A stretch of 8,870 nt of DNA from Dehalococcoidia bacterium (GTDB lineage Bacteria > Chloroflexota > Dehalococcoidia > GIF9 > AB-539-J10): NCBI GenBank assembly GCA_030606765.1, contig JAUWFX010000065.1:1-8870 (forward strand), written 5' to 3'. A program made the position numbers and the translations under genes. Positions 2,046-5,446 of the stretch are shown one piece after another (the first letter of the stretch is position 1; each line of letters begins with the position of its first letter). Below the pieces are notes generated by a model. The model searched no databases, was not told the origin of the DNA, and saw nothing but the letters and a program-made list of their open reading frames with translations.

Positions 2046-2086
2046 TCTTGGTGGCGGGGGTTGGATTTGAACCAATGACCTCCGGG
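2046..2086 (-). repeat. Left 41-bp direct repeat: 3' end of tRNA-fMet (att-like)
   Basis: Bases 2046-2086 are identical to 5406-5446. On the - strand the repeat comprises the 3' side of the anticodon stem, variable loop, T arm (TTCAAAT loop), acceptor 3' strand, encoded CCA, and then AGA. Upstream of it in the tRNA direction (2087 onward) the identity stops at once: no anticodon loop or D arm can be folded, so this copy is only a tRNA tail. The arrangement is that left by tyrosine-recombinase integration into the 3' half of a tRNA gene. The terminator right after it marks this end as the original chromosomal flank. Confidence 0.85.
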
Positions 2087-2128
2087 CCGCGGGACCCAGC
2101 AAACTAGCACAAATTTGGGTAGAAAAAC

Positions 2129-2158
2129 TTGACAGTGTGGTATTGGGCATGTTATACT
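2129..2158 (+). promoter_or_regulatory. Strong sigma-70-type promoter for the island operon
   Basis: A perfect -35 TTGACA (2129-2134) is followed after 18 bases by TATACT (2153-2158), or after 17 by TTATAC. The transcript should begin near 2165 and carry a leader of about 140 bases before the first ParB-like gene. It lies 43 bases inside the left direct repeat and so belongs to the island. Confidence 0.8.
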
Positions 2159-2175
2159 TTAAGATAACCATGTAG

Positions 2176-2194
2176 TGGACCATATTGTGGTCCA
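2176..2194 (+). promoter_or_regulatory. Inverted repeat at the leader start (operator or RNA hairpin)
   Basis: Perfect arms TGGACCA (2176-2182) and TGGTCCA (2188-2194) flank a five-base spacer. The repeat lies just after the expected transcription start and its right arm touches the Shine-Dalgarno sequence at 2194-2204. It can act as a DNA operator or as an RNA hairpin abutting the ribosome site. The arms can also pair with the similar repeat at 2274-2290. Confidence 0.6.
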
Positions 2195-2207
2195 AAGGAG
2201 GTGACAA

Positions 2208-2225
2208 ATGAATAGAAGCATTTGA
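2208..2225 (+). CDS. Five-codon leader ORF (MNRSI) in the island 5' leader
   Basis: ATG at 2208 follows AAAGGAGGTGA (2194-2204), essentially a full anti-16S complement, at ideal six-base spacing, and the ORF stops at TGA 2223-2225. One base later the stem of an intrinsic terminator begins. A Shine-Dalgarno of this quality on so short an ORF, placed against a terminator, suggests a translated leader peptide acting in cis rather than a functional product. A terminating ribosome would cover the left arm of the terminator. The placement is seen in the sequence; translation and function are inferred. Confidence 0.5.
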   Translation: MNRSI

Positions 2226-2226
2226 A

Positions 2227-2261
2227 GGCGTGAGAGCCTTATCTCATGCCTTTTTGTTTTT
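2227..2261 (+). terminator. Intrinsic terminator / attenuator inside the leader
   Basis: A nine-pair stem, GGCGTGAGA (2227-2235) with TCTCATGCC (2242-2250) including one G-T wobble, and a six-base loop, is followed by T5-G-T5 (2251-2261). It lies between the island promoter and the first ParB-like gene. Unless there is an undetected promoter in the short gap after it, it must be read through for the operon to be expressed. This is the classical position of an attenuator. Confidence 0.8.
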
Positions 2262-2273
2262 CAAAAATAAAAA

Positions 2274-2290
2274 TGGTCCGGTTTGGACCA
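2274..2290 (+). promoter_or_regulatory. Second GGACC/GGTCC inverted repeat before the first ParB-like gene
   Basis: Arms TGGTCC (2274-2279) and GGACCA (2285-2290) flank GGTTT, ending four bases before the AGGAG of the first island gene. The arm order is the mirror of that in 2176-2194, so 2188-2194 can pair with 2284-2290 over seven bases, and 2176-2181 is complementary to 2274-2279. It may be an operator for an island protein or part of a switching RNA fold. Confidence 0.5.
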
Positions 2291-3380: not shown

Positions 3381-3395
3381 CTCAGTAAATCAAAG

Positions 3396-3420
3396 TGGTT
3401 CTGTAAAGAACCAAGGGAGG
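3396..3420 (+). promoter_or_regulatory. GNRA-capped hairpin abutting the Shine-Dalgarno of the second island gene
   Basis: A seven-pair stem TGGTTCT/AGAACCA (3396-3402, 3407-3413) is closed by the tetraloop GTAA, a GNRA fold. It is followed directly by AGGGAGG (3414-3420), six bases before the ATG at 3427. Placed this way it could modulate ribosome loading without hiding the site. Confidence 0.45.
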
Positions 3421-3426
3421 ATTAAT

Positions 3427-4200
3427 ATGAGCGTCGAAGAAATAAGAAACAATCTGAATATTGGTTTAACATTAGCTGTGCAGTATCCCTACGGGTTGGC
3501 ACTAGATGACCTACTGATACAGGTGCTGGGATATACTCCCGGCGGTTCCTGGCCTCTGGGGGATAGAGACTACTATATCGCAAAGCTCCGTAATGCACAG
3601 AGTATCGGGCTTCGCAATTATGCTCTGAGGCAGCCCGGCTATTTCACCATAAACGCACAACCGTTTGGTAATATATTCGTGTATAAGGCAGTATGGTATA
3701 CCTGGCTTAATCCGGCTACCGGCAGGACCTGCACAGTTCTGGTGTGTCAAACGGACTTGGTTCCCATGAGGCATTGGCGGGACAGGTATTTGGAAAAAAG
3801 GATAGAGACAACGAGATCGGTAAGAGCGGCAGACAATCTTATCAGGCAGGATAGAGCCCTCACGAGGCAGGACATGCAACAGGTGAAGAATATCCAAGCT
3901 GGTATGGCACAAGACGGTACTTTGTCCGAAGTAGTTACAGGGCTTCTGGGCGTCCCCTATGTGGACGTGGCTGATATGCTAAGCTTACTGTCCCAGGGGA
4001 GCCCATACGGGTCAGTACAATTCAATTTTACCCGCCAAGCACAAAGGATTAGAGAATTAGACAATAGACTGGCTCACGAGCACGCGGCAATTGTTCGTTC
4101 GCTATCCAATTTGATTGCTGCCAGACAAAGCCTGCCCACAAACGCTCTACAGCTAGCTCTTCAGGATGCCAATGAGAGACTTGCTAACCTAAATCAGTGA
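3427..4200 (+). CDS. Unrecognised 257-aa protein, middle gene of the island
   Basis: ATG 3427 has AGGGAGG six bases upstream, so the start is well supported. I do not recognise the family. The N-terminal part (about 1-115) looks mixed alpha/beta: a helix near 23-35 (A-L-D-D-L-L-I-Q-V-L), a G-D-R-D-Y-Y-I-A-K-L-R helix near 45-56, then aromatic strands (Y-F-T-I, I-F-V-Y-K-A-V-W-Y-T-W-L, and T-V-L-V-C). This could be a winged-helix-like DNA-binding unit, but no motif proves it. From about residue 117 the protein is charged and helical (E-K-R-I-E-T-T-R, R-Q-D-R-A-L-T-R-Q-D), and residues 203-256 look like coiled coil. No signal peptide, membrane segment or catalytic motif is seen. It lies between two ParB-like genes on the same strand, which suggests an adaptor or DNA-binding partner; that is inference. 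Confidence 0.75.
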   Translation: MSVEEIRNNLNIGLTLAVQYPYGLALDDLLIQVLGYTPGGSWPLGDRDYYIAKLRNAQSIGLRNYALRQPGYFTINAQPFGNIFVYKAVWYTWLNPATGRTCTVLVCQTDLVPMRHWRDRYLEKRIETTRSVRAADNLIRQDRALTRQDMQQVKNIQAGMAQDGTLSEVVTGLLGVPYVDVADMLSLLSQGSPYGSVQFNFTRQAQRIRELDNRLAHEHAAIVRSLSNLIAARQSLPTNALQLALQDANERLANLNQ

Positions 4201-4203
4201 AAC

Positions 4204-4229
4204 GTAAGGTATAATTAAATTGTAAGGTT
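4204..4229 (+). promoter_or_regulatory. Possible internal -10 box flanked by a GTAAGGT direct repeat
   Basis: A perfect TATAAT (4210-4215) lies just before the third island gene, 27 bases ahead of its ATG, but no -35 stands at the right distance (TTGCTA ends 23 bases upstream). GTAAGGT occurs at 4204-4210 and 4223-4229, 19 bases apart, straddling the box. It may be an internal regulated promoter; weak. Confidence 0.25.
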
Positions 4230-4242
4230 AAGAGGACAAATA

Positions 4243-5295
4243 ATGCTAGATAAAGAGCCCAAAAAGCTAGAGAACAAAGATGTTGATCGGTTAATCGGGG
4301 GAGTGATAGATCTACCTTTAGAAAGAATTTCTCCTGACCCGGAGAACCTGCGCGAGGTCTTTGATGCTGATGACATCAAAGACCTCGGCTTTAATATGAA
4401 AAGAATTGGGCAGCTTGATGACATCACTGTATTCCCAAAGGAGAATTCGGAAGGTAAGTGGACCGGTGACTTCGATCTGCATGACGGTGAACGTCGTTGG
4501 AAAGCTGCCCAAATGGTGGGCATCCCGACATTAAGAGCAAAGGTTATTGAAAGACCAAGTGACCGGGACCTGTTGCTTAAAAGGACCAGTCGTGCGCTAC
4601 AAACACGTGTATTGGAACCTGAGATGAAAATGGAAGCAGTAGAAAAAGCGCTCAGGGAACTGGGTGTTTGGGACAAGCCTGACCTGTGGGAGAGTTATCG
4701 GGAACAGCTTGGTGGTGGAGCTGAATGGCCACAAATTATTAGAACATTACGATCTACACCTCTACTAAAACAAATGCTGGACGAGGGAACGATTAACTTC
4801 ACCTTAGCCCAGTCTATTGCACGACTTCCTCAGAGTAGACAAGATGAAGCTGCAAAGTACGTTGTAGTTAATAAATTAAGCGGTCGATTTTTCTCAACCC
4901 AGATGGTACCCTATCTGATAGAGAACCCCGAAGCTTCTTTGGCTCAAGCTTTCGAGCACACTAGAGTGGGAGGATGGCGCCAGTATACAAAGAGTCCTTA
5001 TCAACGTGGGGAAGAACCACCAACGGAGGAACAAGTAGAGAGATTCCTTGACGCCTGTGTTGAATGGGAGCGAGCATGGGAGGTGCTGGTTCACACAGGA
5101 CTAATATTTAAAATTATTGGGAATACGAACTATGAAAGTCGGATAAGGGATACTCTATCTAGGCTAGAAGAACGGGTTCAGGCAACACTCAAGAAGATGG
5201 ACTCTGCAAATTCTGAGGCTGAGAGCGCAGGCAAAATGCTATTAGACAAAAAACTCATAGTGGATGCTTCAGTTAACAAACTGGACGAGGCGTAG
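4243..5295 (+). CDS. ParB/RepB/Spo0J-family protein, third island gene (350 aa)
   Basis: ATG 4243 follows AGAGGAC with about seven bases spacing. The N-terminal ParB domain is clear: the I-S-P-D-P-E-N-L-R box at 29-37 (the I-x-P-N-P-x-Q-P-R equivalent), helix D-I-K-D-L-G-F-N-M-K, G-Q-L-D-D-I-T-V (56-63), and D-G-E-R-R-W-K-A-A (81-89), the conserved CTP-binding GERR box. Next, about residues 120-210 have the helical ParB/KorB DNA-binding layout: L-E-P-E-M-K-M-E-A-V, a W-P-Q-I-I-R-T-L-R recognition-type helix, and E-G-T-I-N-F-T-L-A-Q-S-I-A-R-L. The last 50 residues are charged and helical, a probable coiled coil for dimerisation. No parA ATPase is present in the island, so canonical ParABS partition is not supported. 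A DNA-spreading or regulatory role paired with the first ParB-like gene is plausible. Confidence 0.87.
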   Translation: MLDKEPKKLENKDVDRLIGGVIDLPLERISPDPENLREVFDADDIKDLGFNMKRIGQLDDITVFPKENSEGKWTGDFDLHDGERRWKAAQMVGIPTLRAKVIERPSDRDLLLKRTSRALQTRVLEPEMKMEAVEKALRELGVWDKPDLWESYREQLGGGAEWPQIIRTLRSTPLLKQMLDEGTINFTLAQSIARLPQSRQDEAAKYVVVNKLSGRFFSTQMVPYLIENPEASLAQAFEHTRVGGWRQYTKSPYQRGEEPPTEEQVERFLDACVEWERAWEVLVHTGLIFKIIGNTNYESRIRDTLSRLEERVQATLKKMDSANSEAESAGKMLLDKKLIVDASVNKLDEA

Positions 5296-5405
5296 CCAAA
5301 ATAAATATTCAAAAATTATCTTAATTAAGTAAACCTATTGCCTTTGTTCTTCAATATTAGGCTTCTTAGAATTGAAGGGGAGCATTATCGCTCCTATTGG
5401 CTTTG
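5296..5405. other. Non-coding right end of the island
   Basis: This AT-rich stretch holds a TTAATTAA palindrome near 5328, inverted arms CTTCAAT/ATTGAAG (5349-5355 and 5371-5377) and a small GGAGC/GCTCC hairpin (5379-5383 and 5390-5394). No T-run follows them on either strand, and no gene is seen. Such repeats next to an att-like end can be recombinase arm sites, but nothing proves it here. Confidence 0.35.
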
Positions 5406-5446
5406 TCTTGGTGGCGGGGGTTGGATTTGAACCAATGACCTCCGGG
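5406..5446 (-). repeat. Right 41-bp direct repeat: tRNA-fMet 3' end (att-like)
   Basis: This is identical to 2046-2086 and in the same orientation, 3360 bases away. Here the identity is the 3' part of a longer tRNA remnant (5409-5472). The two copies bound the island. Confidence 0.85.

Follow-up and report, generated by a model that had tools for sequence, protein, structure and literature searches.

The 8,870-nucleotide (nt) window analysed here (contig JAUWFX010000065.1, positions 1 to 8,870, of the Dehalococcoidia bacterium assembly GCA_030606765.1) contains a unit of three open reading frames (ORF1 to ORF3) lying between two copies of the 3' half of an initiator tRNA (tRNA-fMet) gene. The unit is read here, with a probability of about 0.7, as a cis-mobilizable cassette without an integrase that was inserted by a recombinase acting in trans at a tRNA-fMet site where such cassettes accrete. 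The evidence comprises the repeats, empty sites in relatives, the recurrence of the arrangement with unrelated cargo, an arm shared between elements, and conserved palindromes around ORF1.

Repeats and empty sites at tRNA-fMet

Window positions 2046-2086 and 5406-5446 are identical 41-mers, 3360 bp apart, an exact match that is far beyond chance within 8.9 kb (judged without a shuffle control). Both copies correspond to the minus-strand tRNA-fMet 3' half and span the 3' side of the anticodon stem through three bases past the CCA. The right-hand copy extends into the anticodon loop and D-arm and ends 11 nt before the tRNA start; Rfam matched it as tRNA at 5412-5472 (minus strand) with 27.4 bits, just below the gathering score of 29, and ARAGORN reported no complete tRNA gene anywhere in the window. 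With the right copy 11 nt short, both tRNA sequences in the window are fragments, and a complete initiator tRNA is absent from it. The initial annotation, which had described the copies as the 3' end of an initiator tRNA gene enclosing three genes without an integrase, was confirmed, with the correction that the right copy is also incomplete. The three ORFs, all on the plus strand (Table 1), gave no integrase-family match in Pfam, PHROGs, NCBIfam or PADLOC, bar a single PHROG integrase row for ORF3 at chance level (E = 0.1).

Two relatives, G158 and G374, were picked by the aldehyde ferredoxin oxidoreductase (AFOR) protein of the window (98% identical) among genomes of the class, in a search built around a Dehalococcoidia metagenome-assembled genome. 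Contig C16 of G158 matches the window collinearly to the left and right of the unit and has none of its three genes: window 1-2086 (92%) and 5406-8233 (97%) align to one unbroken stretch, and the two aligned flanks overlap there by exactly 41 bp, in a copy that mismatches the window's at 3 positions. The window unit is on this alignment a clean insertion of 3360 bp. The site is an 11-nt-short pseudo-tRNA already in G158, where no unit is inserted. The intact tRNA-fMet of G158 (L019 743-817) comes after the 23S rRNA, with the AFOR operon lying between it and the pseudo-copy; its anticodon is CAT, its anticodon stem contains GGG/CCC, and positions 1 and 72 form no Watson-Crick pair, so we take it to be the initiator. 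In G100 and G370 an intact tRNA-fMet is followed after ~150 bp by the radical-SAM gene, giving fully empty sites, and from this arrangement the ancestral order is most simply tRNA-fMet, radical SAM, dcd.

These comparisons support what had been proposed from the window alone, that the insertion was site-specific at the tRNA-fMet 3' end without a recognisable integrase. The empty site that the proposal predicted was found in G158 and, with an intact tRNA, in G100 and G370. The repeat does not belong to a dispersed family; a 24-mer of it (up to 2 mismatches) occurred twice each in G158 and G374, always at the tRNA-fMet locus. A risk to the initiator tRNA on which the host depends was not supported, as G158, G374, G805, G319 and G051 each have an intact gene at the proximal cassette end, and the window element (for which no intact gene was seen) occupies a copy that is already truncated in G158.

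Recurrent cassettes and the route of insertion

To place the window unit among related loci, 52 genomes of the G158 family, all drafts, were searched with a pattern of the tRNA 3' end (up to 2 mismatches). The pattern matched in 31/52 genomes and gave no match in 21/52. Two closely spaced tRNA-fMet copies were present in 8 of the 31, and the stretches they enclose, 593 bp to 4.7 kb long, hold unrelated cargo; a second match lay on a different contig in G385, G800 and G803. Copy spacings were 593 bp (G794 and G319), 684 (G051), 725 (G374, two overlapping contigs joined), 850 (G805), 2637 (G137), 2834 (G158) and 4742 (G806:C22). The stretches of 593-684 bp carry HicB-HicA toxin-antitoxin pairs (L085, L086 and L087 in G794, G319 and G051, respectively; assigned by Pfam for G794 and by similarity for the others). 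The remaining cargo includes a DUF3795 protein in G805, HapK in G374, AFOR with ferredoxin in G158, and two ORFs without a Pfam match in G137.

The junctions follow a common anatomy. The block of exact identity starts 0-3 nt from the anticodon loop in the window, G374, G051 and G319, and 10 nt further in in G805; it ends 0-5 nt past the CCA in each of these. On the proximal side the window reads CCACCA-AGA-CAAAG followed by a hairpin, and a nearly identical run of ~40-45 bases adjoins the tRNA 3' end in G374, G805 and G806:C80. The cargo of G374 and G805 is unrelated to that of the window; at G806:C80 the contig stops short of any cargo or second copy. The fold z-score of the arm hairpin is strong in G374 (-6.0) and G805 (-4.1) and weak in the window (-1.7) and G806 (-1.2). 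On the distal side, the native AGAAACTAAGCAGGCAGGAT and its hairpin are present in the window, G158 and G805, and partly in G374, as in the empty G100. Judged by sequence, this anatomy is what conservative site-specific recombination at the tRNA 3' half would be expected to leave, and the arm common to the window, G374, G805 and G806:C80 suggests one recombinase specificity for these cassettes. As the window and its relatives are draft contigs, one might instead invoke an assembly artefact, or a tandem duplication of the tRNA end that arose by chance; such an origin is highly improbable, being contradicted by independent genomes in which this junction anatomy recurs around different cargo, and by the empty sites.

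Under the preferred reading, a site-specific recombinase supplied in trans would insert the unit, probably as a circle, into a pre-existing tRNA-fMet pseudo-copy. The crossover would fall somewhere between the 3' side of the anticodon stem and the third nt after the CCA, with the incoming tRNA 3' half taking the place of the displaced one. Because the 3' half is exchanged, each insertion would leave a 3' fragment with the native terminator on the far side and the hairpin arm of the element by the tRNA. Repeated use of the site would then build an accretion array, for which the window order is the HapK, AFOR and ORF1-2-3 cassettes followed by radical SAM. The circular intermediate, the recombinase in trans and present mobility are what we infer from this scheme. 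Features of a cis-mobilizable element were found in that attL and attR derive from one target and that insertion was site-specific with an empty site in G158, G100 and G370. The window unit stands in tandem with the AFOR cassette, as accretion would predict.

No recognisable integrase was found among the genes of 7 of the 8 paired-copy stretches. In the remaining one, G806:C22 (L090 1058-1612), a 184-aa C-terminal piece of a tyrosine integrase (PF00589, E = 1.4e-17) lies beside a tRNA-fMet fragment, without its N-terminal half, and a trace of a similar gene is present in G799 (L101). Looking for the 41 bp next to an integrase elsewhere turned up no more than this truncated gene, whose neighbouring tRNA-fMet copy is divergent, and the trace in G799. 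These remains are compatible with a dead remnant, in which a larger island with its own integrase at tRNA-fMet was deleted down to three genes and is now immobile, and the pseudo-tRNA copies and divergent AFOR flanks likewise indicate decay at the locus. We regard this as unlikely, as the unit is compact with identical att copies and three genes that are all open, its homologs cluster on contigs of 3.1-3.8 kb, and repeated deletion sparing both att ends would hardly produce independent cassettes of 593-850 bp that differ in cargo. Of the two possibilities offered by the initial annotation, a remnant or movement in trans, the second is the more probable, since small units lacking an integrase are common at this locus. 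The unit may also encode an unrecognised recombinase of its own, ORF2 being without a family or clear fold.

Several results weigh against insertion in trans at an accretion site. PF00589 was present in 52/52 family genomes, none of the matches listed lying on a contig with the tRNA-end pattern (contigs are short), and the sole integrase found beside a copy is the 184-aa piece. ORF1 matched 0/52 family genomes, a sample without a positive control, and the ORF1-3 unit was seen at tRNA-fMet once. G808, G803 and G115 carry one copy, yet other genes, over 1.1-1.8 kb, separate it from the radical-SAM gene, which indicates that not every insertion at this site leaves a repeat. Finally, the copies flanking AFOR in G158 are identical over only 16 bp around the CCA, and this event is thus either old or different in kind.

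The three-gene unit and its homologs

Within the unit, a ParB protein is represented by ORF3 (by PF02195) and by ORF1 (by fold), and no partner ParA ATPase was found among the three genes. A winged helix is possible at the N terminus of ORF2. Palindromes of the GGACC/GGTCC type surround ORF1, numbering 3 in the window and 3-5 at each of four loci with ORF1 homologs (L001-L004), against a shuffle mean of 0.01-0.05 (500 shuffles each); ORF1 probably binds these sites flanking its own gene. The leader before ORF1 (window 2177-2289, and L001-L004), with its palindrome, mini-ORF and hairpin, possibly combines attenuation with autoregulation. The fold z-score of the leader hairpin was -3.04 in L004 and only -0.3 to -1.0 in L001-L003.

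The ORF1 alignment matched 4/393 class genomes, one of them a weak match of 92 positions, and the ORF3 alignment matched 1/393; at E 1e-40 ORF3 matched 0/400 phylum genomes, a sample without a positive control and hence uninformative. No DNA match to the inserted unit was found among the loci compared, except a weak ORF3 match in G376. In that genome, homologs of ORF2 and ORF3 are adjacent (L024 8008-9861) and lie 5' to a tRNA-Ser gene, with ORF1 not nearby, and by eye adjoin a 746-aa helicase-like ORF. No convincing direct repeats were found around the ORF1 homologs in L001-L003. The ORF1 homolog of L001 (9636-10999) starts ~280 bp downstream of a tRNA-Asp gene, with no tRNA-end repeat found. 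In L004 (9639-11154) a lone ORF1 homolog occupies a 1466-bp stretch between 50-bp direct repeats, the core of which occurs nowhere else in the genome; no close enough relative for an empty site was found in 50 family genomes, its own genus consisting of this genome alone.

Homologs of ORF3 were counted from the best 120 of 234 rows, minus the window itself and two 223-aa fragments, each row being a cluster representative. Contigs of 3.1-3.8 kb made up 13/36 rows of close homologs versus 5/81 of the more distant ones listed (Fisher P = 1e-4), and contigs >20 kb made up 1/36 versus 29/81 (P = 6e-5). Seven contig sizes, from 3164 to 3731, were common to all three ORFs (leaving aside fragments of ORF2 and those ORF1 rows below 61%), the same contig being assumed from equal size. 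This clustering on element-sized contigs supports a discrete unit, hinting that it is perhaps circular. A 41-bp repeat alone can cut k-mer assemblies into element-sized contigs. Because assemblies can break at the same places in this way, and because the rows are cluster representatives, the sizes fall short of proving a circle.

The same contig sizes could be taken to indicate a small free, plasmid-like circle, kept by the ParB-like and ORF2 proteins and integrating occasionally through a recombinase of the host or a helper. We consider this doubtful. No replication protein is recognisable among the three ORFs, repeat-induced breaks may yield such contigs, and none of 72,556 plasmid records matched ORF1 or ORF2, with ORF3 finding distant ParB proteins in 27 records. 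Viral contigs held no close relatives of ORF1-3 (ORF3 gave distant ParB at 6 viral loci, 27-36% identity) and no match to two att patterns, and phage records held no close relatives of ORF1 or ORF3. With no close relatives in viral contigs, phage or plasmid records, a viral or plasmid origin of the unit found no support in these searches.

A broader picture combines these elements, and it is offered as a speculation that is rather improbable as a whole. The tRNA-fMet locus would be an integron-like platform, on which a recombinase serving all of them, its gene lying elsewhere, inserts and stacks very small cassettes of a single gene or operon; each would end in a tRNA-fMet 3' half, and one group would have the same hairpin arm. 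The window cassette would belong to a family of ~3.3-3.8 kb three-gene circles with a ParB-like pair and self-bracketing palindromes, having neither replicase nor integrase and living by borrowed replication and integration.

Table 1. Features of the window, with positions, strand and the basis of each assignment
Feature	Positions	Strand	Basis or remark
Radical-SAM gene, conserved neighbour marking the distal side of the site	361..1902	-	~150 bp after tRNA-fMet in G100, G370
Terminator-like hairpin native to the tRNA-fMet gene (attB side)	2003..2037	-	Sequence; similar hairpin after the tRNA in G158, G100, G805
Distal junction (attR): tRNA-fMet 3' half, then outward native terminator context	2046..2086	-	Exact repeat; junction letters as in the empty-site context of G100, G158
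Inserted unit; 3360 bp including one att copy	2087..5405		Missing from G158
Palindrome GGACC-N7-GGTCC, putative ORF1 site	2177..2193		Sequence
Mini-ORF (MNRSI) after a strong ribosome-binding site	2208..2225	+	Sequence; short ORFs at the same place in L001-L004 (by eye)
Leader hairpin then T-run, possible attenuator	2224..2253	+	Fold z -5.15 in the window
Second palindrome GGTCC-N5-GGACC	2275..2289		Sequence
ORF1, 346 aa, ParB/KorB/Noc-like fold, no Pfam match	2304..3344	+	Assigned by fold
Third palindrome GGACC-N5-GGTCC, near the ORF1 3' end	3298..3312		Sequence
ORF2, 257 aa, no family match, no clear fold	3427..4200	+	Pfam, PHROGs
ORF3, 350 aa, ParB_N protein with GERRW box	4243..5295	+	PF02195 30.5 bits (cut-off 26.3); profile matches solved ParB/Noc
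Element arm adjoining the tRNA 3' end: CAAAG and hairpin	5370..5405	-	Common to G374, G805 (unrelated cargo) and the incomplete locus G806:C80
Proximal junction (attL), 41-bp copy	5406..5446	-	Exact repeat
Pseudo-tRNA-fMet without its first 11 nt, plus 3 nt downstream	5406..5472	-	Rfam tRNA; same truncation in the G158 empty site
Adjoining cassette: AFOR and ferredoxin	5692..8051	-	Between intact tRNA and pseudo-copy in G158
HapK-like gene, cargo of the G374 tRNA-fMet cassette	8345..8659	+	Family match; comparison with G374

To the right of the unit, the AFOR/ferredoxin unit (window 5573-8122; L020 10425-12974) is 97.6% identical in G374, where it lies on another contig on which no tRNA was found, and it may thus move by another route too. 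At 8664-8870 the match to G374 stops past the HapK gene and a further reading frame starts, so the array may extend rightward.

Comparison with known systems

If the preferred reading is true, the initiator tRNA, thought to be a risky target, would be a standing acquisition site in this lineage, for cargo down to one toxin-antitoxin pair. The natural att pairs with a shared arm, together with the empty sites, would make it testable which recombinase moves integrase-less islands, and the ParB-only unit raises the question of how a 3.4-kb element spreads when no gene for its replication or integration is recognisable. Among the papers listed by searches of one open-licence library, none described tRNA-fMet cassettes from Dehalococcoidia or the ParB unit.

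A phage satellite, with phage genes and an integrase, did not fit: PHROGs returned ParB-like rows for ORF3, an unnamed family at E 1e-5, and noise. Proteins of the ParB/KorB/Noc type resemble ORF1 in fold and ORF3 in its domain and GERR-type box; unlike those systems, the unit pairs two ParB-like genes without a ParA, and the ORF1 box is degenerate in sequence. A ParABS partition system was accordingly set aside, ParB being found and ParA not among the three genes.

Among island types, tycheposons are also bordered by tRNA genes, including tRNA-Met; in the passages cited they span 4-200 kb and carry a tyrosine recombinase (PMC10872708), unlike the 3360-bp unit without an integrase match, which was not assigned to them. 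The additive islands fGI-2 of Methylophilaceae share repeats of a tRNA 3' end (tRNA-Lys) and start from 330 bp and 1 CDS (coding sequence) upward; they differ in phylum and tRNA, and the same passages describe no shared arm (PMC10872708). Nearer in lineage, the dcpA islands of Dehalogenimonas, also Dehalococcoidia, combine a structural-RNA site, direct repeats and a parB-type gene; the island in the passages cited measures 23 kb, carries recombinase and primase genes, and uses ssrA rather than tRNA-fMet (PMC13390414).

The ssrA islands of Dehalococcoides, as far as the cited passages describe them, lack an integration module in 15 of 31 cases and were proposed to be cis-mobilizable elements gathered by accretion (McMurdie et al., 2011; PMC3146451). 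They resemble the window cassettes in being tandem, in having direct repeats of the 3' end of a structural RNA and in occurring in Dehalococcoidia, and their integration modules also contain a ParB-domain protein; they differ in the ssrA target, the 20-bp repeat and the serine recombinase module (PMC3146451). The cassettes described here target tRNA-fMet, with exact repeats of 31-43 bp (16 bp for AFOR in G158) and stretches down to 593 bp. No complete integration module was seen at the tRNA-fMet cassettes examined, serine recombinases not having been searched for, and with its tRNA-fMet target the unit was not classed as an ssrA-type island. Accretion islands without an integrase are thus a known kind, and the novelty here lies in the tRNA-fMet target, in how small the stretches are, in the arm common to several cassettes and in the two ParB-like genes.

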